Virus record (IMG/VR): IMGVR_UViG_3300046680_000139
Location: 1 to 51,561 of that record
DNA length: 51,561 nt
Source of the DNA: a virus
Direction: 5' to 3' (one strand)
The position numbers and the translations under genes are program-made. The notes beneath the pieces are model-generated. The model was not told the DNA's origin. It saw only the letters and a program-made list of their open reading frames with translations, and did not search any database. Numbering within the stretch: position 1 is the stretch's first letter; each line of letters begins with the position of its first letter. Below are positions 1 through 51,561 of the stretch, piece by piece.

Positions 1-74
1 CACGGTCGTGCATAGGGTCTCTTTTTTATTTGAGTCCCCCCCGCCCCATTTATTTCCGCCATCCAACGCGCGCT

Positions 75-389
75 TCATTTTCTTTTCTGTGTTTGATAGA
101 CAGGATGCTTCGTGTCCTTCGGCCATCCATCCACACCGATGTCAGTATTGTATCCGCGTATCTCGAGTTGTTGTTTCGTCGCACCATGATGATGTGAGCA
201 CAATGATTGTACTGCACCGAGCCAGAACTTAATAGGATCTCTCTTGTGAGGCTCGACGTGGTCAACGATCACAGCAGGGACTACCTCGCCGAGCTGCAGA
301 CACATTGCGCACAGCGGATGGTCCTGGAGTTGCTGCTTCGCAATCTTTCTCCATCGACGAAGATCGTATGGACGTTTTACTTCAAGCAT
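75..389 (-). CDS. HNH endonuclease
   Basis: Small HNH nuclease of about 104 aa. Visible are a first Cys pair (HPLCAMC), the VDHVEPHK segment with the HNH His, and SLCSHHHGATK near the end, the usual Cys/His zinc ligands and bba-Me nuclease core. Phage HNH proteins of this kind usually sit next to the terminase and assist packaging or cos cleavage. If the window ends join, this gene lies about 100 bp upstream of terS on the same strand, which fits that role. The ATG at 389 was chosen; in-frame TTG/GTG starts up to 416 are possible, and no clear ribosome binding site separates them. The nuclease family is clear, the packaging role is inferred. Confidence 0.8.
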   Translation of the reverse strand: MLEVKRPYDLRRWRKIAKQQLQDHPLCAMCLQLGEVVPAVIVDHVEPHKRDPIKFWLGAVQSLCSHHHGATKQQLEIRGYNTDIGVDGWPKDTKHPVYQTQKRK

Positions 390-453
390 AGTACACAACA
401 CATGGGTGAAACCCAAATTGCGAACACGTCCACAAGCATTTGGGATCGTGTTC

Positions 454-948
454 TTAAACCGGAGCCAACACGCCTTCCTTAAATAAAATTCTTGTCTGTG
501 CGCCTAGTAAATTAAAAAGAGCAGCTTCGTGCTGCCCACTGATGCCATCGAATACGCCAATCTTTTCTGCCAACACGCCAGATAATACTTTCACTTGTTG
601 GCCACGCATGAATTTCGGTTGAACAGGATTTAGAAAAATCCCGTTTTTATTACAGCTAGCTTTCAGATCTTTCATCGCGGCTGCTCGTACCGTCGCAATG
701 CACTCACCTTGCATGAGCACACCTGCCACCCCGTTCGCATGCAGGATGCCACTCCAGCGGTCCTGGACCCAAGCGAAAAAGTACCGTGGATAAAGTGGAA
801 AAATCGTGTAACAACTGCGGCCTCCATTTCGTCGCAACCTCTTGACAACCTTAGGATAAAAAATCGGGTACCCTAATTTGGCCACGCTGATGGCGGATTT
901 TGCCTCCGCACGCGGCTCAGAAACGACCACAATCCACCCTGGAAGCAT
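454..948 (-). CDS. NusG/RfaH-like transcription elongation (antitermination) factor
   Basis: Product of 164 aa with NusG N-terminal features: a WIVVVSEPRAE start, a GYPIFYPKV strand, and FPLYPRYFFAWV, which is typical of NusG/RfaH NGN domains. It is followed by a KOW-like C-terminus (GQQVKVLSGVLAEKIGVFDG). Family members bind the RNA polymerase clamp and suppress pausing or termination. The ATG at 948 puts the conserved Trp at residue 5, as in RfaH; a TTG start at 1002 would add 18 unconserved residues. It is the last gene before the HNH and packaging region on the leftward strand and follows a perfect 17-bp inverted repeat, so a role as a specialised antiterminator for the late operon is attractive but inferred. 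Confidence 0.8.
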   Translation of the reverse strand: MLPGWIVVVSEPRAEAKSAISVAKLGYPIFYPKVVKRLRRNGGRSCYTIFPLYPRYFFAWVQDRWSGILHANGVAGVLMQGECIATVRAAAMKDLKASCNKNGIFLNPVQPKFMRGQQVKVLSGVLAEKIGVFDGISGQHEAALFNLLGAQTRILFKEGVLAPV

Positions 949-1030
949 GTTTTTGATGTCCCGAAAAAAGTGTACGATACACGATGCAAGCTTTTGAAAC
1001 AAGTGGACTAAACGTGTTACAGCGCCGCAG

Positions 1031-1131
1031 CCAAGGGGTGTAAGGGATAGTCGTTTACAACTCGGTCTACGCTACCCCACTTTTCAATTTCGTTCTTAGA
1101 GTTGTATATGACCGTCCCTTACACCCCTTGG
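1031..1131. repeat. Perfect 17-bp inverted repeat with nested 8-bp repeat between primase and NusG-like genes
   Basis: Arms 1031-1047 and 1115-1131 are exact reverse complements (CCAAGGGGTGTAAGGGA and its complement). Inside, 1056-1063 (TACAACTC) and 1099-1106 (GAGTTGTA) form a second pair. The right arm includes the end of the primase gene. Read rightward the stem is followed by a T-rich run; read leftward it is not. Possible roles are an antiterminator loading site, a transcript-end hairpin or part of an origin. The structure is seen directly; its function is unknown. Confidence 0.75.
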
Positions 1132-3344
1132 GGTTTTTGTTTTTCTGTCAGATCTCGTTGCAGCTGCTGCAGTAAAGCCTTTGCAGCGGCAATTTGCGCG
1201 TCAGCGCCCAAATCGGTCCGCGCGTAGATTGCCACCTCAAATTGCTGCTGCTTGCCAGCTTTTGAAGTGGAATAGCGCCACCGGTTGTGGCCTCCAGCCT
1301 TGTTTCGGACCGCTGCATAGCCGCACATTTCAATGCGGTGCGGAATAGCGCGAGCGTTCTTACGATCGTCCAACCAGACTGCAAAACTTTGCGAAGGGGT
1401 TGCCGCTGCGATCATTGCGAGCGTAATAGCAGCAGGTCGATCCAGAATATTTAACGCCTCAGCAAATTCCGCGTCTTCTTGCGGGAGATTTGCTTCCACA
1501 ATATCCAAGAAGGCTTCGGTCTTACGTGGTGGCGCTTTAGGATTAAATTTACTTATATCGTGTTGCCTGAGATACGCGGCTACGTGTGCGAGGCCACCAC
1601 CAGATAAATACCACGACCATAACGTATCCCAGTACGCTTGCACAAAATCTTTCTGCATTAACCGGCTCCACGCCACGTACGTACGCCGATCATTTGACGG
1701 CAGATAAATACCACTAGTTTTATGATTGGTTGTAATGATAACGCCAGTCACATTCATCACGGCGTATTTCTTCATGTGTTTTTCTTCACACTGAACAATA
1801 TCCGGAGGTGAAGCGGTCAGCGTTTTCATATGCTCGTAGAAATCGTACCGGTTGACTTCACCTAGATCGCGTGCTTCAGATATTCGACAGATCACAGATT
1901 TAACGTGTGCATTAAATCGTGATACCACGCTCTTCGGCGATACCTCGCTGAAATTCCACGGACCGATCGCGTGCTTGACCGGTTCCAGTAAACTATCCTT
2001 ACCAATTCCAGGCTCACCACCGAGCAGCAGTGCGTGGTTGATCTTCTCACCTGGACGCTGCACGCGGTGCGCTAAGAAATTAATAATATGTGCAGCGTCG
2101 TCGGGATAAATCCGGTGCACCAGATTAACCCAAAGTTTGGCTGCAGCGGCGCTACCTTGCGTAACGACCGGCGGATAATAAAGGTTTAAGCACATCGTTC
2201 CAGGCTTTTCGATCCAACCGCCTTGCTCGCGTGCGATGCGATCGGGTATCAGCAAATCGTCTCCCGGTGCCCACGTCATCCCCTGCACTTTACGATTTTT
2301 ATCAAGCCACACCGATGCCAGCACACGTTTATTGTTATGTGTCTGCTTAGGCAGTTGCGTATTGACGCTGCTGGCTGGCCATGATTGACCAGTCGGCAGA
2401 TAAATATAATTGTGCGACGGCAGGAACGAAACGAAATCATCCACCGTTGCCAGCATCGGAATATTCTCGCCTTCACGCCACGTCGGATCGATTTGAGTAG
2501 CGTAATGAAAGATCGTACCAGCCGTAAATTTAGAAACCTTTTCACATTCGCGCCACTTGCGCTCGCAATGCGCCTTGTTATATTTCTCAGACTTGCGGGA
2601 CCACCGTTCAAATAATTCAAAGCCAGCCTCGCCTAGCTCGTGCGCGAGTGCGCTACCTACCTCGAACCAGATTTGATATTCGTCGCTAGGAATTATATCG
2701 AGTGCCTCATTGAGTAGTTTAATATCTGCCGGTGCGTGCGCGTACGTGCGCTTCTTATTATCTGACTCGTAATCATCGTCCACACCATTTATAAACGTAT
2801 CAGCTTTATACGGCTTACCTTCGTTAATCTCAACCAGCCGCACCCGAAACGGTTTACCTTTCTGGTGGATAAATCCCGGCAGCCGCAGCACGCGCGGTAA
2901 GTCAGTGATCGCAGGATCGCTGCCTAACCGCTTGATCAGTTGCCGCTGCGCTTGCCGAAAGAGTTTGGCATCCAGCGGCATATCCTTGACGCGCCAATAC
3001 GCGTGCCAGTGCTTCGGTGAACTCTCTACTATGATGTGTGGACGCGGGTCAGCCTTAGCCGGAGCCAGCGGTGCACCATCCAAATCTGCAAACACCGCAC
3101 GCACGCGCGTGACGTTTTCCATTTTACGTCCGTGGCCATCAGTCTCGTTGACCGTTATGTAAATACCAGCGCCAGCCTTGTTCAATCGACAAAGTGTTTC
3201 CCAATGCTGCGCTAATGTGCCGTGCAAGACGTGCGTTAAGCCGCGCGCCTTCTTCTTACTCTCGTCGAACGTCTGAAACGTAAACGTGTTAGCGTCTGGC
3301 TCTAACGCTTTTAAGAACTTTTCTGTCTCGGCACGATTAGTCAT
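1119..3344 (-). CDS. Primase-helicase (RepB-like AEP primase, PriCT-like linker, DUF5906-type SF3/AAA helicase)
   Basis: Replication protein of 741 aa. Residues about 60-180 look like a RepB-like archaeo-eukaryotic primase: VFADLDG (about 84-90) carries catalytic Asp residues and HAYWRV (about 113-118) a His. Residues 210-290 resemble a PriCT linker. The C-terminal half is a phage DUF5906-type helicase: Walker A GEPGIGKDS (443-451), Walker B-like CRISEARD (about 486-493), sensor GVIITTNHK (534-542) and an NDRRTYVAW arginine-finger motif (about 551-559). It should unwind the fork and synthesise primers for the downstream family A polymerase. The ATG is preceded by GGAGG. It abuts a 98-aa gene upstream with a 2-bp gap. 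Confidence 0.93.
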   Translation of the reverse strand: MTNRAETEKFLKALEPDANTFTFQTFDESKKKARGLTHVLHGTLAQHWETLCRLNKAGAGIYITVNETDGHGRKMENVTRVRAVFADLDGAPLAPAKADPRPHIIVESSPKHWHAYWRVKDMPLDAKLFRQAQRQLIKRLGSDPAITDLPRVLRLPGFIHQKGKPFRVRLVEINEGKPYKADTFINGVDDDYESDNKKRTYAHAPADIKLLNEALDIIPSDEYQIWFEVGSALAHELGEAGFELFERWSRKSEKYNKAHCERKWRECEKVSKFTAGTIFHYATQIDPTWREGENIPMLATVDDFVSFLPSHNYIYLPTGQSWPASSVNTQLPKQTHNNKRVLASVWLDKNRKVQGMTWAPGDDLLIPDRIAREQGGWIEKPGTMCLNLYYPPVVTQGSAAAAKLWVNLVHRIYPDDAAHIINFLAHRVQRPGEKINHALLLGGEPGIGKDSLLEPVKHAIGPWNFSEVSPKSVVSRFNAHVKSVICRISEARDLGEVNRYDFYEHMKTLTASPPDIVQCEEKHMKKYAVMNVTGVIITTNHKTSGIYLPSNDRRTYVAWSRLMQKDFVQAYWDTLWSWYLSGGGLAHVAAYLRQHDISKFNPKAPPRKTEAFLDIVEANLPQEDAEFAEALNILDRPAAITLAMIAAATPSQSFAVWLDDRKNARAIPHRIEMCGYAAVRNKAGGHNRWRYSTSKAGKQQQFEVAIYARTDLGADAQIAAAKALLQQLQRDLTEKQKPQGV

Positions 3345-3346
3345 CC

Positions 3347-3643
3347 CTACCTCCTTCTCGGCACGTTATATTTCTTGCGAATTAACCAGAGCTGCCGGGC
3401 ATATCTGGCTTGCTTTGCCATACGACGCATTGGCATCGGTTCAATAAAATCAATCTCAGAATTTAACATCTTCAACGCACCACGGCTGCCATTTGGTACG
3501 CTGTTAGTCCACGCATCTGGGTGCAGCTCGTGCGCGGCAGTACAATACAGCAACCGGCTGTCATCGACTTGGTCGAAGTCACGATCCAGCAACGTCGATA
3601 ATGCTCGTGCATCGTTTGTAAAAACATACCACCCTGCTAACAT
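3347..3643 (-). CDS. Hypothetical protein (98 aa, basic C-terminus)
   Basis: No function recognised. The N-terminal half is rich in aromatic and acidic residues (WYVFTNDARALSTLLDRDF) and has a CTAAHELHPDAW stretch; the C-terminal 30 residues are strongly basic (MRRMAKQARYARQ, ending NVPRRR), which suggests nucleic-acid binding. The ATG has GAGGAAG upstream. It lies 2 bp from the primase-helicase start and is probably co-translated with it, so an accessory replication role is likely but unproven. Confidence 0.75.
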   Translation of the reverse strand: MLAGWYVFTNDARALSTLLDRDFDQVDDSRLLYCTAAHELHPDAWTNSVPNGSRGALKMLNSEIDFIEPMPMRRMAKQARYARQLWLIRKKYNVPRRR

Positions 3644-3701
3644 TTTCTTCCTCGAATAAAAAGTAACGGCTTACACGGTTTCACTGGGACTACCCCAACA
3701 A

Positions 3702-3787
3702 AGCTGTACGAGAACCAGAACCGTGTCTTGAGTTTCCTCGCCCGTTGCCGTCGCGGCTGCGTTGACTACCCTACCTCTCGTACAGCT
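3702..3787. repeat. 12-bp perfect inverted repeat in intergenic region
   Basis: Arms 3702-3713 (AGCTGTACGAGA) and 3776-3787 (TCTCGTACAGCT) are perfectly complementary, with a smaller pair CACGGTT (about 3675) / AACCGTG (about 3718) partly interleaved. The element fills most of the 150-bp gap between genes ending at 3794 and starting at 3643. GACTACCC occurs twice inside (about 3689 and 3765), and a similar CTACCCCA lies in the 1031-1131 element. Possible RNA-processing, operator or antitermination signal; role unknown. Confidence 0.6.
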
Positions 3788-3793
3788 AGCAGG

Positions 3794-4474
3794 TTACTTC
3801 TTCTTGCGGCTACCCGTAACAGGTGCGTCTGCCGCTTCCTCAAACTCGGATTTCTCGGACCAGCCTACGATCTCAAAGATCGGAAACTTGATACGACCGT
3901 AAGCCGGGTTTGAGTGCATATACGATCCAACGCCAAGCGCAACGATCGGGTACTCGTCCGGGTGCTCACGCATTTGCTGCCCGTACTCGCCCGACAATTT
4001 CGCCATAGCGTTCTTGCCGCCAGCCGAATTAGTCGTGAACGTAAATAACTGTCCACGCTTACCCGGCTCTTTCATGAGCAGCAAGTGTGAGTAAACCCAC
4101 GGATCGCGCGGCTTGCCGGTTGACTCGTCGATCTCCCACTCAGATGGGTCGTTGAACGAAAGTTCATCCCGCCTTGGCGGTTTGAAGCCATCGACCAGCG
4201 GTCCCATAACTTGTTCAGCTGGCCGCGCGTCCTCCCAGCGTTGCCAACCAACAAGTAACTGGTCCATGTTCGCAATCAGTTTGGTGCCGAGCTCCACCGA
4301 CTCGTTGTCCTGTCCGACAACAAAATCTCCTTTGGAAAATTTCAGCAACATACCGATGATCGTACCAGTGCTAGCACTCCTGCCATACTCAATAAACGGA
4401 TTACGTTCATCGCCCACGGCAGGAAGCTGTGACTCGACGACCTTTAGTGACTTTCCACTTGACTTAGCCATCAT
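3794..4474 (-). CDS. Hypothetical replication-region protein (226 aa), possible ssDNA-binding protein
   Basis: Not assigned to a named family. The start at 4474 (ATGATG) has AGGAGA 5-6 nt upstream, so the longer open frame to 4594 is not used. The protein has a YGRSASTGTIIGMLLKFSKGDF beta-rich N-terminal region, a W-rich middle (LVGWQRWEDARP, SEWEIDEST), PWVYSHLLLM, a FTFTTNSAGGKNAM segment and an acidic then basic tail (EFEEAADAP, SRKKK). Abundance of aromatic residues, an acidic C-terminal stretch and its place between primase and nuclease/polymerase genes would suit a single-stranded DNA-binding protein, but the OB fold is not demonstrated. Confidence 0.7.
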   Translation of the reverse strand: MMAKSSGKSLKVVESQLPAVGDERNPFIEYGRSASTGTIIGMLLKFSKGDFVVGQDNESVELGTKLIANMDQLLVGWQRWEDARPAEQVMGPLVDGFKPPRRDELSFNDPSEWEIDESTGKPRDPWVYSHLLLMKEPGKRGQLFTFTTNSAGGKNAMAKLSGEYGQQMREHPDEYPIVALGVGSYMHSNPAYGRIKFPIFEIVGWSEKSEFEEAADAPVTGSRKKK

Positions 4475-4521
4475 ACTTCTCCTGTTTAAATTTCCCGTCA
4501 ACGATTGCTGACAGGGGTATG

Positions 4522-43877: not shown

Positions 43878-45210
43878 CGGTTATGCCTTTGGGTTCACTT
43901 GGCTGCGGAGGTTTTAAATCCGCTGCCGGTGCTGGCGGTGGCGCACCCGGTGCTGGGGATGCTGGGATCTTACCCGCCGCGCTCAATGGAACGACCTGCT
44001 GCTGTACGCGCGGTTCGTCACCAAACTTGACTTGTTCCATATCGAACGCAGCACGCGCCTCGTTAGGAGAATGAATGCCGCCTTGAACCGAGCGCACGTA
44101 ACCCTCAACACGATCCTTAAACGCCGATCGTAAGAGCGCAGACGTATCGAATTCAAGGTACTCATCTGGAACGCCGTCGAGAGAAAAGAAACGTCCCATC
44201 GCTTCCTCAATATGATTTAGACAAAAGCCTAGACCCGTTGAGATCCACATCTGCATTAAGGCTTCGGTCGATCCGATCGGTCCGCCACCGATGCCAAACA
44301 TTTGTAACGGAATACGATACGCCAGCGCGATCCTCGCATCGGAAATTTTCATAACGTCTGCTAATTGCGAATCAACGGAATTGGTAGAAAGTTGAAACGG
44401 TTTCAATCCGGCCGACAAAATCGGCGTGCCGCCAACCCCGACACCTTTAGATTGCTCGTCCCATTTCTGCCGGAGCATATCCGTCTGATCTTTATCCAGC
44501 CGCAGATCGGTGGACAGCACATGGCTCGGTCGAGCCTGGTTCATATAGAATTTAATTTGCTGGTTTGCGATCGCATCGGTTAGAGCCATGTCGCGCAGAA
44601 TTGCCAGCAGCGGAGACATTCCGCGCAACATGTACGGCTCCTGGTTCATCCGGATATGCAGAACATCGCGTGCGGGTACTAACTCCATTTCTGGCAGCAT
44701 GCGATCGATAACAGGATTACCACCAAGTCCGTAAAAGACTTCGCCGTCATCCGCAACGTACGGCATGCACTGGCTAGGTTCCATCAAATGCAGCGAGTCA
44801 ATTTCGTAACGGGAATTGCGCAGCGCCAGCGCGTACGTGTTACCATCCGCGTAGAGCGAACGAACGGCGTTCAGCATGAAATCAGAAATAGTTTGGTAGT
44901 CATTTGGGTAACGAAGAAACCGCGCTAAGTCTGAAGTCATAACGCGATCGCGGCCACCTTTGTCATCGGAAAGCCAGTGATCGCCTGGACACATCGCGGT
45001 AGTCTGGCTGTAAGAATTAATACACGCGTCCACCATCGCAGACGGAGAAAATCTTTGGATGCTGCCACCATTCTGCCACCAATTGTCAGAACTGTCCGCC
45101 GGTAGCCACCCGCCGCTAACCGGCAAGATCCACGGTCCAGGACGGTAGTTTCCCTCTGCCGCTTTCACAAGCGTGTGGCCGATGCGCGCAACAATTTCTC
45201 TAAGCGCCAT
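43813..45210 (-). CDS. Portal protein (HK97 family)
   Basis: Product of 465 aa. SPSAMVDACINSYSQTTAMCPGDHW, FLRYPNDYQTISDFMLNAVRSLYADGNTYAL, RNSRYEIDSLHLMEPSQCMPYV, VLHIRMNQEPYMLRGMSPLLAI and ARIALAYRIPLQMFGIGG are the standard HK97 portal blocks. The C-terminus is a Pro/Ala-rich tail. AGGA is 8 nt before the ATG. Dodecameric DNA gate at the vertex. Confidence 0.95.
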   Translation of the reverse strand: MALREIVARIGHTLVKAAEGNYRPGPWILPVSGGWLPADSSDNWWQNGGSIQRFSPSAMVDACINSYSQTTAMCPGDHWLSDDKGGRDRVMTSDLARFLRYPNDYQTISDFMLNAVRSLYADGNTYALALRNSRYEIDSLHLMEPSQCMPYVADDGEVFYGLGGNPVIDRMLPEMELVPARDVLHIRMNQEPYMLRGMSPLLAILRDMALTDAIANQQIKFYMNQARPSHVLSTDLRLDKDQTDMLRQKWDEQSKGVGVGGTPILSAGLKPFQLSTNSVDSQLADVMKISDARIALAYRIPLQMFGIGGGPIGSTEALMQMWISTGLGFCLNHIEEAMGRFFSLDGVPDEYLEFDTSALLRSAFKDRVEGYVRSVQGGIHSPNEARAAFDMEQVKFGDEPRVQQQVVPLSAAGKIPASPAPGAPPPAPAADLKPPQPSEPKGITDADRSKLTSLFRSSHDRHLSI

Positions 45211-45354
45211 GACATTATCCTAAATGAAACGTGACCGAGTGAAGTACCTGACAGGGTTAGTAATGGGGTGGTTTCAAGCCAAAGACCCCACTCGATCACG
45301 TCCTTGTTCAACTGGCGCTGGTGGGGAACACCCGGTGAACCAGTTGTCCAAATG
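45211..45354 (-). promoter_or_regulatory. Structured leader upstream of portal gene
   Basis: Two inverted repeats occupy this 144-bp gap: CGTGACCGAGTG (45230-45241) with CACTCGATCACG (45289-45300), 11 of 12 matching and a G-U pair possible, and CAACTGG (45309-45315) with CCAGTTG (45340-45346). Possibly a processing site or internal promoter region that sets portal levels relative to capsid. Confidence 0.45.
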
Positions 45355-45678
45355 CTACTTATTAACCGCACGAGTTTCGTAAGTGCCGCGCTGTGCCGGT
45401 TTTGCTTCCACCTGTTTAGTCTGACCCGGTACCGGCTCAGGTCCGCTACCATCGTCTTCCTTTTCCATGACGTTGCATCCCATCACCGCAAGATCATTTT
45501 CTTCCTGCGTCGGGGTTGGCGTGGAAGCCTGTACGCCTTCCTTGGCGCTGACCTTACTAGCCTCTTCGCGCGCCTTGCGTTCTTCGCCAAGCTTCTTCTT
45601 GGCTTCCTCCGCGCGCTTCTTTTCGTCTTCGGTACGTTTGGCCGCAGCCGCGTCGGCCTTCGCTTCATGGTCAGTCAT
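45355..45678 (-). CDS. Charged, largely disordered protein (107 aa), possible scaffold-like
   Basis: The N-terminal half is a charged helix rich in Lys/Glu/Ala (DAAAAKRTEDEKKRAEEAKKKL), then a Pro/Thr/Gln-rich disordered part (STPTPTQEEND, GPEPVPGQTKQ). No family recognised. Position between the capsid region and portal could suit an internal scaffold or a minor head protein; inferred. Confidence 0.65.
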   Translation of the reverse strand: MTDHEAKADAAAAKRTEDEKKRAEEAKKKLGEERKAREEASKVSAKEGVQASTPTPTQEENDLAVMGCNVMEKEDDGSGPEPVPGQTKQVEAKPAQRGTYETRAVNK

Positions 45679-45689
45679 CTGACTGCTCC

Positions 45690-46160
45690 TTATGTTGGCT
45701 CTGGGAAATTTAACATTCCCCGATGTGAACGCGCAACTTCATCATAAGATCTAGCTGCCTCTTCTTCGGTGTCGAATAAACCCAGATACCGTACACCTTT
45801 ACCTACGATGTGAATACGGGCTCTCCAACCTTTGCCACCCCAAAAATCAACGCCGCGAAATTTACTCTTTCCCATCGCACGACGATTGAGATTTTGTAAG
45901 CTAGCATCAGCACTCCATTCGACATTCTCAGAAGTATAATTACCATCGTTGTCAATACGTGTAAGTTCGTGCTTTAAGCTCGGACGCACACCCATGTCAG
46001 CGAGGAAGTTTTCAAACTTACGCCAACGCGCACACACTTTAATGCCACGACCACCGTAGTCCTTATAAGATTTACAGTTAACATTTTCGCAGCGTTTACG
46101 CATACCACACCAACTTTCATAAGTCGGCGTCTTAGACATTCCATGTGAACGCGCTGGCAT
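45690..46160 (-). CDS. HNH-AP2 homing endonuclease
   Basis: Product of 156 aa. TPTYESWCGMRKRCENVNCKSYKDYGGRGI, CARWRKFENFLADMG, ELTRIDNDGNYTSENVEW and DASLQNLNRR are the HNH blocks; the C-terminal FRGVDFWGGKGWRARIHIVGKGVRYLGLFDTEEEAARSYD is an AP2-type DNA-binding domain. Free-standing nucleases of this group cut genes of related phages and spread by gene conversion. It lies right after the capsid gene, a usual target region. Confidence 0.9.
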   Translation of the reverse strand: MPARSHGMSKTPTYESWCGMRKRCENVNCKSYKDYGGRGIKVCARWRKFENFLADMGVRPSLKHELTRIDNDGNYTSENVEWSADASLQNLNRRAMGKSKFRGVDFWGGKGWRARIHIVGKGVRYLGLFDTEEEAARSYDEVARSHRGMLNFPEPT

Positions 46161-46168
46161 TTTTCAAT

Positions 46169-47572
46169 TCACCACGTCACACCGGATACCCACGCAACCG
46201 TACCCGGACGACGGATCGTCCAGTTGATCGGCAGGATAAGCCGCAGCGCCAGCGAGTCAGTCTGGAACATTGACTTGACCGGGAAGGCCGCAACCGGTGG
46301 CGTACCAGCCGTTGTAATGTCCGATGGCGAAGTGTCTTCAAGATGCAGCGTAGCTTGATCACTGATTTCGAAGCGCGGTCCATCGCCCGTGACGGAAACA
46401 TAATCCGCCGCGTCCATCGCGATGACGGTACCAAGTGGCACGGTACCCGCATCAATGATCGGCCAACCACCGAGGTTGCCCGCCGCAACTTCAGCTCGGA
46501 ACGGGAAGGCTCCAAAGCCGGGCATCGCAACGAGACCAAGGCTGTTCACTTGCTGTGGGTTCATCAGCCACACAGGATTACGAACGTTACCGAGCGTGCC
46601 GGTGATCAACGCACCAGTGAGTTGTTTGATATCACCAACCACTGCCGTGAAGCCACCACCCGCCGTCGGGGTCAGACCCGCAACGCCGTTAAGAATACCG
46701 GCAGGACGAACAAGCGTTGCCGCACCAGTATCCAACAAAATCGCGTCCAGAGAAATTGCCGTGTCTTCGCCGATGGCTGCACGCAGCAGACCTTCAATCG
46801 CTGGCACGGAGTGTTCATCAATTTCTCGTGTCCACGTCGTGATGACCGCCATTTTCTTTGGCGTCAAGGTTTGGCTAGTGAACTGCCCTTGACGAACCGG
46901 TATCGGTTGACCTTCACCGACAAACGATCCAGCAATCGACGGCGTACGTGATCGCGTCGGGATGATGATCTTCCCGTTACGACCGAACGTCAGTCCAAGA
47001 CCAGCAGCCGAGAGCCTCGGGAATACTGACTTGGGTAGCAACGTCTCCATAAAGTCAGTGACTATTTGCTGAACGAGCTCTGCTGCCCAGCCAACGACTG
47101 TCGTCATAGCCGGAGCAGTTGCCGCGCGTGTTGCCCACTCCACCACCGCACGAGTTTGTTCATCATCGCCGTAAATGGCTTTGCGAACGTCGCTGGTATC
47201 CTTATGATGAAGGTGAGAAAACAACTGCACAACACCAGACCGTACCAGTAGGTCAGTCGTTGTAAGTTGTTTCTTTGGCATACCGAATGGACGCGGGGAT
47301 GCCGCCGCAGCTGCAGCCGGTTTACCTTTGGAAGCCGGAACGATCGCGCGTCCGGTCGTGTCCACCGCCGTCGTTGCCAAGTTGCGCTCGGAGTCACGCA
47401 GCAGCGTGATGGTCCGCTCGATCTGGGCAATTTCGTCGTTGAGCTGTTTGGTCTTTTCCATCTGCTCGTCGCTGACATTGTTATCGTCGAGACTTTCCAG
47501 AAAAGTCTTCAGCTCGTCGATCTTCTCAACCTTACGCTTTTCCGTGTCCGCAATTCTCTGTGAGAGCGACAT
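46169..47572 (-). CDS. Major capsid protein from internal start within the protease-capsid gene
   Basis: In-frame ATG at 47572 (MSLSQRIAD) has AAAAGGAG 8 nt upstream, the best ribosome site in this part of the gene. It gives a 467-aa capsid precursor that begins with the delta domain, exactly where separate HK97-type capsid genes start. Free capsid could thus be made in excess over the fusion. Site seen directly; use inferred. Confidence 0.65.
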   Translation of the reverse strand: MSLSQRIADTEKRKVEKIDELKTFLESLDDNNVSDEQMEKTKQLNDEIAQIERTITLLRDSERNLATTAVDTTGRAIVPASKGKPAAAAAASPRPFGMPKKQLTTTDLLVRSGVVQLFSHLHHKDTSDVRKAIYGDDEQTRAVVEWATRAATAPAMTTVVGWAAELVQQIVTDFMETLLPKSVFPRLSAAGLGLTFGRNGKIIIPTRSRTPSIAGSFVGEGQPIPVRQGQFTSQTLTPKKMAVITTWTREIDEHSVPAIEGLLRAAIGEDTAISLDAILLDTGAATLVRPAGILNGVAGLTPTAGGGFTAVVGDIKQLTGALITGTLGNVRNPVWLMNPQQVNSLGLVAMPGFGAFPFRAEVAAGNLGGWPIIDAGTVPLGTVIAMDAADYVSVTGDGPRFEISDQATLHLEDTSPSDITTAGTPPVAAFPVKSMFQTDSLALRLILPINWTIRRPGTVAWVSGVTW

Positions 47573-48262
47573 GGTCGCTACTCCTTTTCGTACATGGTGC
47601 ATGACGGCTTGCTTGCCGCTGAACCTGCGACGGCGCATGCGGTCTTTTGTGCCTTGCTCGGCAAAGACCACATTCATCGTATCAGGGGAAATCTTTAAAC
47701 CCTTGGCAACCGCCAAGGCATTGGGATTTGCCGGTACACTTACCAGCGATGTTTCAACTAATTCCTGCTTAGTAAACTTATAACCACTGAATGGATTTTC
47801 TTTATCCAGCGGCTCGTATTCCTTTGGCCGGAAACCAACCGACACGGCTTTAAGAATGCCCGCGTCAATCAGTCTGCGGATTTCATCAATGCGCTGGCTC
47901 GTTCCTTCCGGAGCCATCTCGAGATGCCCGCGCAATTGCTTATTTTCCACGCGCAGATTTTTCCACTTACCAATTGGGAAGTCACTGCGGTGACCGAACA
48001 GCGCGATGGGATTTTTTTGAAACGCCTCCAGGTCCCAGCCGTCTGACATGATGACGTCATCCATCCGGTCAGACGTTTCGTCCGACATGACAAACTCCAT
48101 GCCGCTAACTTCAGCAGCATGGGTCTTGTGAATAACCTCTGTCACTTTACGTTCCTCATCCCAGATCGTTTGACACTCGTCCTGGTCGAGCTCGTCGGTG
48201 CACCGATCCATGAAGTCGGAATAATCCTCGTCGTCATCCGGTGGCGGCATCTTGACTGACAT
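46169..48262 (-). CDS. Fused prohead protease and major capsid protein (HK97 type)
   Basis: Product of 697 aa. Residues about 45-190 are a U35 prohead protease: GMEFVMSDETSDRMDDVIMSDGW, NPIALFGHRSDFPIG (His91), ILKAVSVGFRP and LVETSLVSVPANPNALA (Ser172/175 region). Residues 230-290 form a delta/scaffold coiled coil (SLSQRIADTEKRKVEKIDEL). The rest is an HK97-fold capsid (VFPRLSAAGLGLTFGRNGKIIIPTR, VGEGQPIPVRQGQF, KKMAVITTWTREIDEHS, ILNGVAGLTP). The protease normally cuts off the delta domain. AAGGAG is 9 nt before the ATG. An internal start also exists (separate entry). Confidence 0.92.
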   Translation of the reverse strand: MSVKMPPPDDDEDYSDFMDRCTDELDQDECQTIWDEERKVTEVIHKTHAAEVSGMEFVMSDETSDRMDDVIMSDGWDLEAFQKNPIALFGHRSDFPIGKWKNLRVENKQLRGHLEMAPEGTSQRIDEIRRLIDAGILKAVSVGFRPKEYEPLDKENPFSGYKFTKQELVETSLVSVPANPNALAVAKGLKISPDTMNVVFAEQGTKDRMRRRRFSGKQAVMHHVRKGVATMSLSQRIADTEKRKVEKIDELKTFLESLDDNNVSDEQMEKTKQLNDEIAQIERTITLLRDSERNLATTAVDTTGRAIVPASKGKPAAAAAASPRPFGMPKKQLTTTDLLVRSGVVQLFSHLHHKDTSDVRKAIYGDDEQTRAVVEWATRAATAPAMTTVVGWAAELVQQIVTDFMETLLPKSVFPRLSAAGLGLTFGRNGKIIIPTRSRTPSIAGSFVGEGQPIPVRQGQFTSQTLTPKKMAVITTWTREIDEHSVPAIEGLLRAAIGEDTAISLDAILLDTGAATLVRPAGILNGVAGLTPTAGGGFTAVVGDIKQLTGALITGTLGNVRNPVWLMNPQQVNSLGLVAMPGFGAFPFRAEVAAGNLGGWPIIDAGTVPLGTVIAMDAADYVSVTGDGPRFEISDQATLHLEDTSPSDITTAGTPPVAAFPVKSMFQTDSLALRLILPINWTIRRPGTVAWVSGVTW

Positions 48263-48273
48263 TGGGTAACTCC

Positions 48274-48624
48274 TTAGGCAGTCGGCACCTCGAGCGCGAT
48301 ACCGAACTTGACATCATCTTTTGTCTGTTCAACAGGATTGTCGCGCGTGCCCGAACGGATTTTCAACCAGCCGATCGACCGCACCCACGCACCGGTTACA
48401 ACGACGGTAGTATCCGGCTCCGGTGAGATGGTAATCTCGCGGCCTTCTTCGTCGTACAGATCGTTATACAAGTTGCCATCGCTGGACGTTTGAAACGTCA
48501 TGTTGGCATCAGTATATTCCTGTGGTACCGTAATCCGCACGATCGTTCCCGCCGAACAATCAACGCCGTCGGAAAGTGACGCGTCTTTGAGAATGGTTGG
48601 CCCGTCTACAATTTGCAGTCCCAT
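48274..48624 (-). CDS. Small structural protein, possible capsid decoration (116 aa)
   Basis: Beta-rich sequence: VDGPTILKDASLSDGVDCSAGTIVRI, PQEYTDANMTFQTSSDG, TTVVVTGAWVRSIGWLKIRSG, VKFGIALEV. Patterns of small jelly-roll or Ig-like proteins, common beside phage capsid genes. GAGGT before the ATG. No named family; the decoration role is inferred from position. Confidence 0.7.
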   Translation of the reverse strand: MGLQIVDGPTILKDASLSDGVDCSAGTIVRITVPQEYTDANMTFQTSSDGNLYNDLYDEEGREITISPEPDTTVVVTGAWVRSIGWLKIRSGTRDNPVEQTKDDVKFGIALEVPTA

Positions 48625-48633
48625 GGTGTTACC

Positions 48634-48993
48634 TCATTGTGAGAGTGACATTCGAAGCACGACGTTGCCGGTCATGGCAACTTTTATTTTACCGTCAGCT
48701 TCCACGAGTTTTAATTCGTGGTAGTATAAATCCGGCTTGAGCCCGATGGTATCTTCCGCATCAATTGTAACATCGAGACTGGTACCCGCAACCGCGATGC
48801 CATCACTCTGGACTTTCGTTATCAGAATATCTTCGTCCATCGAATACGGCGATCGCGCCAGCTTCCACTCCAGGCTCGTAACCGTTGCCAGATCGTAACC
48901 CGTCATGTCCACACTAACAACTTTATCCTCACCGCAGAATAACTGAAAGTTCTGGTTGAGCGCAGCAGTAACGAGAATTGGATCTGGTGTCAT
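48634..48993 (-). CDS. BppU-type/Ig-like structural protein (119 aa)
   Basis: NFQLFCGEDKVVSVDMTGYDLATVTSLEWKLARSP, then ILITKVQSDGI, LDVTIDAEDTIGLKPDLYYHELKLVEADGK and VAMTGNVVL follow the beta-sandwich pattern of BppU N-terminal-like modules. It is similar in type to the protein at 25816-26160. Here it lies among head genes, so a head decoration or adaptor role is likelier than baseplate. Confidence 0.68.
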   Translation of the reverse strand: MTPDPILVTAALNQNFQLFCGEDKVVSVDMTGYDLATVTSLEWKLARSPYSMDEDILITKVQSDGIAVAGTSLDVTIDAEDTIGLKPDLYYHELKLVEADGKIKVAMTGNVVLRMSLSQ

Positions 48994-49053
48994 CGTTCCG
49001 GCTTCATGATGTTTGGCGTTGGACCTAACGTGCGCTCCATCGACGGCGCTGGT

Positions 49054-49278
49054 TTAACCGACGGCGCGAAAGGGCAACGGCAATCCCAGCAGCAAAGCGA
49101 TAATCATGTAGAGCGCGATAAGCGCCACGATGATCATGAACACCTTTTGAATTTGCGCCGGAATTGGAAAGCCAAGATAACCCATGAACCACACGATCAC
49201 CAATCCTATCAGCACCAGGATAGCAATCGCGATTGCGATATTTACGATCCCAAGCAGCACTGCACCGAGTGAAATCAT
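49054..49278 (-). CDS. Two-span membrane protein, candidate holin (74 aa)
   Basis: Two strong transmembrane helices (IVNIAIAIAILVLIGLVIVW and KVFMIIVALIALYMIIALLL) joined by a short loop with Pro and Gln (LGFPIPAQIQ). Size and topology fit a class II holin. GGAGAAC is before the ATG, which overlaps the upstream stop (ATGA type). The gap 48994-49053 has no other gene. Holin function is inferred; small membrane proteins next to terminases often lack known roles. Confidence 0.65.
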   Translation of the reverse strand: MISLGAVLLGIVNIAIAIAILVLIGLVIVWFMGYLGFPIPAQIQKVFMIIVALIALYMIIALLLGLPLPFRAVG

Positions 49279-49496
49279 GTTAGTTCTCCATACTCACCGT
49301 CCAACAAGAATTGATCCCAGCCTGCAGCGGGACCGATGATCACCCGCCAAGGTTTCGTCTTTACTAAGTCACTCGCACCACCGGCAAACGCATCACTAAT
49401 GCGTCGGCACTCTTGCTCAGACCCACGATAAAATTCGGCAAGTCCCCAGCCGCAATTATCGCACTGTTCAATCCGGTATGTGACGACCCATTCCAT
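49275..49496 (-). CDS. Hypothetical protein (73 aa)
   Basis: Small protein with CDNCGWG knuckle near the start (a single CxxC, WVVTYRIEQCDNCGWG), SEQECRRISDAF, and a C-terminal WRVIIGPAAGWDQFLLD. May bind one metal ion as a dimer; no family. It overlaps the holin-like gene by 4 bp and starts 12 bp after the terminase stop. Confidence 0.65.
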   Translation of the reverse strand: MEWVVTYRIEQCDNCGWGLAEFYRGSEQECRRISDAFAGGASDLVKTKPWRVIIGPAAGWDQFLLDGEYGELT

Positions 49497-49508
49497 GACA
49501 TTAACTCG

Positions 49509-51119
49509 TCAGAAAATTAGTGTCCCCACGTCTACGTCATCTGCGTATTGACCGGCAACTCCCATGGCCATCGTCAGCGCTACCAGTCCGTCGATGCGGC
49601 CACTGGATTTATTCTTGCTCAATTTGCGGTTCGCGTCATCCTTAGCATCAATAACAGCGCAAGCAGCACACATAGCCAGCACGGGATGGTCGCCATGCGC
49701 AATCTCCTTTTCCTTAATCGCACCCTCCAAGTCACGCAGTGCTGGAGACATCGACTGCGTACCTTGACCGAACTCGACGAATATTTGTTCAGACTTTTCA
49801 TCTTTACTCGATGACTGACCCGGCAATTTATGTTCTGGAAAACCGGCTTTGATCAACCACGGCACGAGGTGTTTCATATTCCAGCGGTCGAACCCGATCT
49901 TGCGAATGTCATAAATTTCATAAAGATGGAAAAGCCACTTGGCAACGTACTCATACGAAATCGTGTTACCTTCGGTGGTTTCTAGGAAACCATCTTCTTT
50001 CCATACATCATACGGCACCCGGTCTTTCTGTGCCTTCTCACGTAGCCCGTAAGCCGGTAGCCAGAAAGTTGGATGGACTTGCCAGACGCGATCCTTCTTG
50101 CCGATAAGGACCAGCGCGGTTAAGTCTGCCACGGAGGATAAATCCAGACCACCGTAAACGGCAAGTCCATCCAGCGGCGCAGGAGGCGCACCGCATGTCT
50201 GCCAAACCGATTGCGTAACGAACGGGTTATTAATTTCTACCCGCTGGTTCAGCACTAAATTTCGGTACTCGGCTTCGCGCGCTGGCATGCGCCGCGCGTC
50301 TTCCGCCATCGCCAGAACTTCTTTCGCATTCAAGAACGTACCGAACGCAGGATTAGCCTGACGAATTGTCTTTATAGAAAATGGATCTGCCGCCTTCGGT
50401 GCTGTGTACAGAGAAACGATGGTACGCGGGTCATGACCAGCTAACGCATCGTCAATCAAAATACTCAGCAGGTCGTTGTCGCTTGGCGCTTGCGTCGAGA
50501 TAATAATTGATAACGGATCTTCCTGCGCACCCGTTGCGGTCTCGAGCGCCTCGTATAAAGTTGAGCGCGGTCCACGCACCTGACCCAGTTCATCATGGAC
50601 AATGAACGCGGGCGAAAGGCCGAATGCGGTGGAAGCTTCCGCGCTCAGTGCTCTGTATTTGGTGCCTCGCGCAATACAGAGCAATTCTTTGGCAGTGTCG
50701 CGTACGGTCACAACAGCTCGCAGCTCTGGACCTAACCGTACGATCTTCGCCGCTAGAGAAAAAATTACGCCAGCTTGTTCGCGCGATTGCGCGGTGGAAA
50801 AGAGCTGGCTATTGACGATAGAACTCTTTCCGCAGAGATGATTGAGTAACAGGAATGCACTTAGACTTGTTTTGGCATTCTTGCGCGGGAAACTTAGGAT
50901 CGCACGGCGCGTGCCAGCAACGTTATCGTAAATCTTTTTTATCTCTGTCTTCTGCCACGGCTCCAGCTGCACTAACTCGCCGACGTGCTTGCCCTCAGGA
51001 ATGCGGCAGTACTTCTCGATCCAATCGATGACGTCCTGGCCACTGACTTTCTTCGGCGCGTCAGGCTGCGGCTCCGAGCGTACACGACGCTTCTTCTTGG
51101 CGGCACGCTTCACGACCAC
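49509..51119 (-). CDS. terL: Terminase large subunit
   Basis: Product of 536 aa. Walker A-like SFPRKNAKTS (about 76-85; Lys-Thr in place), Walker B FIVHDELGQ (about 172-180), coupling region SIIISTQAPSDND, and nuclease acids in GGLDLSSVADLTALV, IGFDRWNMKH and GRIDGLVALTMAM. It is the ATP-driven packaging motor and headful/cos nuclease of the Terminase_1 family. It starts with GTG 51119, overlapping terS by 10 bp. An N-terminal basic stretch (RAAKKKRRVRSEPQP) is present. Confidence 0.95.
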   Translation of the reverse strand: MVVKRAAKKKRRVRSEPQPDAPKKVSGQDVIDWIEKYCRIPEGKHVGELVQLEPWQKTEIKKIYDNVAGTRRAILSFPRKNAKTSLSAFLLLNHLCGKSSIVNSQLFSTAQSREQAGVIFSLAAKIVRLGPELRAVVTVRDTAKELLCIARGTKYRALSAEASTAFGLSPAFIVHDELGQVRGPRSTLYEALETATGAQEDPLSIIISTQAPSDNDLLSILIDDALAGHDPRTIVSLYTAPKAADPFSIKTIRQANPAFGTFLNAKEVLAMAEDARRMPAREAEYRNLVLNQRVEINNPFVTQSVWQTCGAPPAPLDGLAVYGGLDLSSVADLTALVLIGKKDRVWQVHPTFWLPAYGLREKAQKDRVPYDVWKEDGFLETTEGNTISYEYVAKWLFHLYEIYDIRKIGFDRWNMKHLVPWLIKAGFPEHKLPGQSSSKDEKSEQIFVEFGQGTQSMSPALRDLEGAIKEKEIAHGDHPVLAMCAACAVIDAKDDANRKLSKNKSSGRIDGLVALTMAMGVAGQYADDVDVGTLIF

Positions 51120-51535
51120 GTGTGCACGTCCTTTATCGTCTCCTTCAACGCCTTGTTCTTAACGACCGCCGCATTGCGCATGTTATAACTTGATTGCTGC
51201 GCTAGTCGCATCTTGGTCGCCAGCATGGCGATCGATTTACATTCTAGTCTACGAAGACTAATTAGCTGCTTCCATTCGACGCGATTGTTTGCCTTACGCG
51301 CCTCTTCAATAATCTTATCCATATACGGTAAACCAGCAACTTGTTTGCAATACATCAGCAGCAGGACGTGTGTTTCAGGTGGAAACCAATCCGCTGGCAT
51401 CCTGCGTACGATATGTCGCCATACTTTTGCTTCGTCTTCATTCAAATCTTCGTGCGGCTCCGGACGCGCAATCACGCCAGAATTTAAATTCAAAGATCGC
51501 TCTGCAGCTGATATACGCGGCATATATCTATTCAT
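51110..51535 (-). CDS. terS: Terminase small subunit (P27-like)
   Basis: Product of 141 aa. LNEDEAKVWRHIVRRMPADWF, LLLMYCKQVAGLPYMDKII, VEWKQLISLRRLECKSIAMLATKMRLAQQSSYN match the P27 small terminase pattern (helical, WR..L...L, KMRL...R). It binds the packaging site and loads TerL. The start may also be ATG 51523. In a joined genome, the HNH gene is its upstream neighbour. Confidence 0.88.
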   Translation of the reverse strand: MNRYMPRISAAERSLNLNSGVIARPEPHEDLNEDEAKVWRHIVRRMPADWFPPETHVLLLMYCKQVAGLPYMDKIIEEARKANNRVEWKQLISLRRLECKSIAMLATKMRLAQQSSYNMRNAAVVKNKALKETIKDVHTWS

Positions 51536-51561
51536 ACCTCGTAGAAAAAGTCAGTTCCGGT

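Follow-up and report, generated by a model that had tools for sequence, protein, structure and literature searches.

The window analysed here, i.e. the whole IMG/VR record of 51,561 bases, carries an inverted repeat between a gene for a primase-helicase and a gene for a NusG-like protein, and this locus raises the question of which of the two neighbours the repeat serves. An earlier note had joined it to the latter, proposing that a NusG-like factor could be loaded at the hairpin or nearby and prevent termination over the late genes. Our analysis separates these two adjacent features: the hairpin is very probably the replication origin, or an initiator-binding site, of the primase-helicase encoded upstream, and not a NusG loading site. 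On the minus strand, the primase-helicase gene (3344-1119), the hairpin (1131-1031), the NusG-like gene (948-454) and an HNH endonuclease gene (416-75) follow in this order, and the genes of the small (TerS) and then the large (TerL) terminase subunit come after the HNH endonuclease once the ends of the window are joined. The main features are as follows.

1119-3344, minus strand: primase-helicase, 741 aa, with a RepB-type primase, PriCT_2, a DUF5906 helicase-like part and a putative C-terminal wing-like segment
1031-1131, minus strand: hairpin and putative origin of replication, with arms at 1031-1063 and 1099-1131, kept with other stem sequence in relatives L003, L004 and L015/L016
454-948, minus strand: NusG/RfaH-like protein, 164 aa (Pfam, PHROG, relatives, AlphaFold, Foldseek)
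75-416, minus strand: HNH endonuclease at the head of the late operon (PHROG 2323, 2.5e-26)
51110-51535, minus strand: terminase small subunit, next gene across the joint (PHROG 12559, 9.2e-17)
49509-51119, minus strand: terminase large subunit (Pfam TerL_nuclease, 6.6e-25)

The joining of the window ends, raised as a possibility in the earlier note, was borne out by L004, a locus on another contig that runs across the joint: it aligns in a single run to 44023-51561 and then to 1-4517, with a gap of 4 nt at the joint (4 nt present in L004 and missing from the window). With the ends joined, the packaging genes and the structural operon do lie downstream of the NusG-like gene, in the same direction. 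The window and the contig of L003 stop at a nearly identical base in the HNH-terS interval, and in our terL survey many contigs start about 400-500 nt ahead of terL; because of these coinciding ends, a natural, cos-like genome end is suggested. Near terL, two other genomes carry a palindrome about 80 nt long, with a 19-bp stem and a 38-nt loop, at the end of the gene in G001 (L029:2086-2165) and one ORF beyond it in G009 (L030:2315-2392). It is absent from the window and from L004, and looks like a small inserted element.

The perfect 17-bp inverted repeat that had been described upstream of the NusG-like gene was confirmed, and forms the outer pairs (1031-1047 / 1115-1131) of a structure of 101 nt in total, whose 33-nt arms are 88% complementary and are separated by 35 nt. 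No other short-range inverted repeat in the 51.6-kb window is as strong, and this one occurs there in a single copy. The region folds strongly on both strands (z of -7.35 on the minus and -8.21 on the plus strand, with 0/200 shuffles as good on either). The stop codon of the primase-helicase gene (1119-1121) falls inside the first arm, and the hairpin lies 83 nt upstream of the NusG-like start codon. Smaller elements could be discerned within the arms.

1112-1129, minus strand: first arm, with two 9-nt units in tandem, AAGGGGTGT and AAGGGACGG, 6/9 alike
1033-1050, plus strand: the first-arm units inverted in the second arm, read from the sequence as AAGGGGTGT and AAGGGATAG
1057-1063, plus strand: inner box ACAACTC, inverted at 1099-1105, recognised by eye

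The window's own units are degenerate, and those of its first arm, matched by 137 of 2000 shuffles, are not significant alone. Similar AACTY boxes were seen by eye inside the hairpins of L003, L016, the phage BPP-1 and the plasmid pRN1. A bidirectional origin marked by GC skew was discarded, as the skew keeps its sign across the hairpin; since the skew here tracks gene direction, this result neither supports nor excludes an origin. Between positions 1 and 3500 of the window, no Rfam match was obtained at E up to 1, and no sigma-70-like promoter was found vs 4.2 expected from shuffles.

Comparison with the relatives revealed that the shape of the hairpin, rather than its letters, is maintained. 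The window family comprises three lineages besides the window's, and its primase had no relative among the genome contigs searched. L003 and L004 are close to the window, with 97-98% identity in the NusG-like protein and 91% and 87%, respectively, in the primase; L015 and L016, near-identical sequences on two contigs, are more distant (primase 64-65%, NusG about 30% identical). The window stem reads CCAAGGGGTGTAAGGGA, those of L003 and L004 read TGAGGGGTCGTGAGGGGTCGTTA in one and TGAGGGGTGATGAGGGGTGATAT in the other, and that of L015/L016 reads CCGAGTGATGTGAGTGATGG. Despite this replacement of the stem sequence, 17-23 perfect outer pairs are retained in the window and in each of these relatives, in which the stem lies a few tens of nt past the primase stop; structure is kept in all of them while sequence changes. 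At the site of the window's units, L003 and L004 have perfect 10-nt tandems, and tandem units as good were rare among 2000 shuffles (1 for L003, 3 for L004, 2 for L016). The NusG-like protein of the two close relatives is thus nearly unchanged while the stem is largely replaced, and a letter-by-letter reading of this site by NusG is therefore not expected, which speaks against a factor loaded at the hairpin.

The distribution of the hairpin beyond this family points the same way. We collected 79 loci with BPP-1-type primases (71 viral and 8 from genomes), and 76 were used, L198 and L210 being dropped for lack of the primase C-terminus and L188 for having only 52 nt downstream. A stem of at least 18 pairs was found 3' of 74 of these 76 primases (region scanned: from 80 nt ahead of the primase stop to 900 nt past it) vs 0/76 control windows just upstream and 0/380 shuffles, and no NusG domain was detected in any of the 50 BPP-1-type primase records searched. 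Conversely, a terminase search followed by a NusG domain search in 50 of the records yielded six records with NusG, i.e. four lineages; as many records of this survey end near the terminase, its absence from the other 44 proves little. All six keep the NusG-HNH order, extended by TerS-TerL where the contig allows, the upstream genes of the four lineages differ from the window's where listed, and no comparable hairpin was found near NusG in any of them when scanned at 17 or 15 pairs. Because 74/76 primase loci have the hairpin, 0/50 of the records have NusG and the NusG lineages lack the hairpin, the hairpin belongs with the primase. The earlier note held that its case would fall if the repeat were absent from close relatives keeping the gene; it is absent from distant relatives that have NusG, and not from the close ones, as L003 and L004 keep the hairpin. 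We also scanned downstream of nine primases at greater distance (24-49% identity in the matched part) and found no clear tandem hairpin; one of these, that of phiM5, has a shorter hairpin in the right place (16/18 pairs, loop of 31).

The window primase-helicase matched the Pfam families RepB_primase (3.3e-18), PriCT_2 (1.5e-19) and DUF5906 (6.1e-11), the last of which we take to be an SF3-like helicase part, and among PDB sequences it matched RepB' 3h25 (1e-5) and the primase 6k9c (6.7e-5). It thereby has the pRN1/BPP-1-type domain set of AEP primase, PriCT_2 and DUF5906. Its C-terminal segment aligns with the C-termini of BPP-1-type primases and would form a winged-helix or wing-like part; since the AlphaFold model of the protein (5 alignment rows) had a pLDDT of only 35.9 and was not used, this assignment is drawn from sequence. 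In the case of the window, the hairpin is read as an origin on the grounds of its position and shape, the domain order of the primase and the relatives.

Known replicons offer close parallels. The origin of pRN1 spans about 100 nt, with a 21-bp stem and a 58-nt loop, and starts 54 bp past a gene for an AEP primase / SF3 helicase / winged-helix protein; deletion and mutation showed its stem-loop to be needed for replication (PMC4234260, PMC3869888). The stem-loop sequence is poorly conserved and its flanks are conserved, recognition being ascribed in 2014 to 'not yet identified sequence motifs' and the origin being described as without iteron structure (PMC4234260). In pRN1 as in the window, the initiator gene is thus followed closely by a stem-loop of about 100 nt that is kept in structure and not in sequence; the two differ in that the pRN1 initiator has a pRN1_helical domain where the phage primases considered here have PriCT_2 (PMC4234260). 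The words 'tandem' and 'direct repeat' are absent from the main texts of PMC4234260 and PMC3869888. We found 9-nt-spaced repeats in the arms of pRN1 (TGTCCATAG TGTCCAACT; 5/2000 shuffles as good) and, judged by eye, of pRN2 (GGACCGATA GGACAGGAA) and pHEN7 (TGTCACCAC TGTCACAAC). Among phages, the BIP-1 primase, with the same PriCT_2-containing domain order, has a 3' stem-loop (PMC4234260); the one drawn there may or may not be the BPP-1 hairpin found here. BPP-1/BIP-1 resemble the window in this primase domain order and in the gene order primase-hairpin-endonuclease-TerS-TerL, and each of their arms holds two tandem 9-nt units. Unlike the window, BPP-1 (L148) has no NusG between primase and endonuclease, and its hairpin lies about 465 nt past the primase stop, whereas that of the window abuts the stop. 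Two further systems are phage P4, with its ori/crr iterons, and the plasmid RSF1010. The alpha protein of P4 is a winged-helix initiator with helicase and primase parts that binds repeated units, as proposed here, but its primase is of the bacterial (Toprim) type and its origin is described as repeats, with no stem-loop (PMC4234260). RepB' of RSF1010 has a primase domain related to the window's and was solved (3h25) with its initiation site, which is a hairpin (ssiA/ssiB) (PMC4434180). This system differs in that ssiA is only about 40 nt long and that RepB', a polypeptide of its own, works together with RepA and RepC (PMC4434180, PMC4234260).

The larger BPP-1 group allowed us to ask what the arms contain. 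The loci gave 52 distinct hairpins, of which all but one, whose arm was shorter than 16 nt, entered the tandem count; two tandem units of 8-10 nt at 87% identity or more were present in 45 of the 51 distinct arms vs 5 of 1020 shuffled arms. BPP-1-type stem-loops thus look like hidden iterons, with tandem units as the usual state. Most units fit G-NNN-CGT or G-NNN-CGA, where NNN varies among phages and is usually equal in both tandem copies and, by pairing, in both arms. Listings of the open-licence literature brought up no account of either such units or a recognition code; the internal repeat is previously unnoticed, and a recognition code is likely. In L139, whose hairpin lies 107 nt past the primase stop, the best stem spans three tandem 9-nt units in one arm instead of two.

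The variable triplet follows two adjacent residues near the primase C-terminus, D832 and S833 in BPP-1. Among 77 loci with a C-terminus, 55 had a clear unit class and 22 an unclear one, and deduplication left 46 rows in 12 classes; for L141, L150, L151 and L155 the class was set by eye, before the residues were inspected. Leaving out pairs at 97% identity or more, residue 832 agreed in 107/107 same-class pairs vs 203/890 different-class pairs, and both residues agreed in 82/107 vs 10/890. Identity-controlled column scores reached 0.783 for residue 832 and 0.570 for residue 833, the best of any column in 2000 within-clade shuffles being 0.484. Unit classes and residue pairs correspond as follows.

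CGA with KD; CGT with RD; GAA with MN; TGG with KG; CCT with DS
AGA, GGA and GGT, all with KN
TGA with R then S, T, G or N; TGT with RG
TAC with QN or QH; AAC with QN

A tree built from residues 240-780 requires no fewer than 23 changes of unit class and no fewer than 18 of residue 832; with so many class changes, shared descent alone is insufficient as an explanation. Independent pairs linked a first C to Asp833 (mean of 5.6 same, 0 opposite and 1.4 without difference; median p 0.031). For a middle G with Lys/Arg832 the count was 4 same and none opposite, which is not enough for significance, and a link of a first T to Ser/Gly/Thr833 was unsupported in these pairs (2 same, 1 opposite, 2 without difference). 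The pairings at the middle base, Lys or Arg with G, Gln with A and Asp with C, agree with contacts that are common between amino acids and bases. On balance, we lean towards four hidden iterons in the palindrome, with the two adjacent C-terminal residues as a rewritable code for the variable triplet. The middle base would be read by residue 832 (Lys/Arg for G, Gln/Met for A, Asp for C), and residue 833 would help to specify the first (Asp for C). Three loci, L138, L203 and L204, have different triplets within the two units of one arm (GAT/TTA; TGT/TGC) and primase residues outside the common code (LN and RQ); they are possible intermediates of a code switch.

Predictions fixed before the sequences were inspected had mixed outcomes. 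BcepC6B (KN), for which GGA, AGA or GGT was expected, has GGA, its C-terminus resembling that of L190 within the sample so that it is hardly independent. For L146/L147 (KD), CGA was expected and no such hairpin was found, so this prediction failed. In 13 new contigs, 11 of them with a previously unseen C-terminus, the hairpin was present in 13/13; Lys/Arg832 went with a middle G in 10/10 and KG with TGG in 4/4, three of these in the first unit only. Beyond the predictions made, RS went with TGA in one of two cases (TGC in the other), KS with TGG in 2/2 and Lys followed by a gap with TGA in 2/2; L274, with EY, has an unclear unit. This set is without KD, RD, MN and D833 cases, and the test is weak because nearly all of the 11 belong to a single clade, with units starting TG.

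The covariation was measured in BPP-1-type primases, and for the window a code is carried over from that group by inference. The residues concerned are R680 and N681, the window primase ending in GYAAVRN..., aligned to the GFAAVRD of L151, a phage of the CGT class.

1302-1307, minus strand: codons of primase R680-N681, aligned with BPP-1-type residues 832-833

All four members of the window family carry RN at these positions. Their units read GGT in both copies of L003 and of L004, AGT in both of L016, and GGT in one and GGA in the other in the window, in line with the code in having a middle G with Arg and a purine as first base with Asn. The expectation of (G/A)GT for RN was written with those sequences already in view, and there is a counter-case within the sample, L199, which has RN with TGA.

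A mechanism can be proposed on this basis. The C-terminal segment of the initiator would bind short units, two in tandem per arm and inverted between the arms, so that two sets of subunits would face each other across a segment of about 55-65 nt; the SF3-type helicase part would then assemble and open the DNA, and the RepB-type primase part would lay primers. In the BPP-1 group, the unit would be G-NNN-CGT/A, with NNN read by primase residues 832-833. We observed where the hairpin lies, what shape it keeps, that its stem sequence is replaced, that units recur in tandem and that residues and units covary; for the window phage, binding, opening and priming are what we infer. Apart from this, the NusG-like protein would be a factor in its own right, encoded at the head of the late operon.

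Loading of the NusG-like factor at the hairpin, as RNA or DNA, to prevent termination over the late genes would account for the short distance to its start codon, for the late genes lying downstream after end joining, for the NusG/RfaH fold of the protein and for retention of the hairpin in two close relatives. It accords poorly with a stem replaced next to a NusG that is still 97-98% identical, and with hairpins without NusG and NusG without hairpins in the surveys above, and we regard it as improbable. There is little chance, too, that the hairpin works in the early-late mRNA, whether as an RNase III site, as a stabilising hairpin or as a terminator separating primase and nusG. Its place on the operon's sense strand and its strong folding would suit such an element, but both strands fold about equally well, Rfam gave no match, and tandem units linked to primase residues are not expected of it. 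An intrinsic terminator was rejected, as the sense strand has no U-run after the hairpin, that of the other strand being found in the window only. The palindromes after terL in G001 and G009 bring to mind a mobile or selfish, MITE-like palindrome that came to lie after primases by chance. This is very improbable given the fixed site after one gene family in 74/76 loci with unrelated stem sequences, the single copy in the window and the covariation with the primase residue pair. An origin or initiator-binding site of the primase-helicase thus remains our preferred reading.

If this is true, origin recognition would be predictable from sequence in a large set of phages and plasmids, phages of differing code would be unable to use one another's origins, and each code switch would require all four unit copies and the protein to change together. 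It would also explain a changing stem sequence under a constant shape: such replicons would keep changing 'lock and key', perhaps for independence from competing phages or satellites.

As to the NusG-like protein itself, the ORF called mechanically runs from a TTG over 454-1002, and the ATG at 948, giving 164 aa, is more likely the true start. The protein matched the Pfam NusG/NGN domain (PF02357; E 4.8e-6, 27.4 bits vs a cut-off of 22.2) and PHROG 6386, 'transcription antiterminator' (E 6.1e-10); Foldseek matches of its AlphaFold model (pLDDT 81.8, pTM 0.59) were full-length NusG and RfaH chains. Of the NGN and KOW-like parts that had been noticed, the NGN domain is therefore certain, with its match above the cut-off; a KOW domain gave no Pfam match in this protein, and a KOW part is likely from the C-terminal beta-strands of the model. 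A tblastn search of a phage collection with the window NusG gave a single weak match (E 0.09). The NusG-like gene heads the late genes in the window family and in four distant lineages, and a role there is reasonable, since distant relatives whose NusG is 18-27% identical repeat the arrangement NusG-HNH-TerS-TerL. Judging by gene order and fold, there is about an even chance that the protein is an RfaH-like factor acting on the late genes in antitermination or processivity. The interpretation given in the earlier note is thus partly supported: NusG probably acts on the late genes, but not via the hairpin.

The NGN domain and overall fold are common to the window protein and to RfaH and other specialised NusG paralogues. 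RfaH has an ops recruitment element; the window differs in having no copy of GGCGGTAG, which we take to be an RfaH ops-like motif, and recruitment of the ops type was dropped for the window NusG. A terminator-like stem-loop with a T-run lies within the nusG coding sequence (519-537, minus strand); L003 and L004 have it unchanged, and a NusG recruitment element might be sought there. The contigs of L015 and L016 have one GGCGGTAG each, at the nusG/HNH boundary, within the ops-like GGCGGTAGCAT located just after nusG and overlapping the HNH start (L015:6945-6955 and L016:3632-3642, in G003/G004); this match may be a ribosome-binding site.
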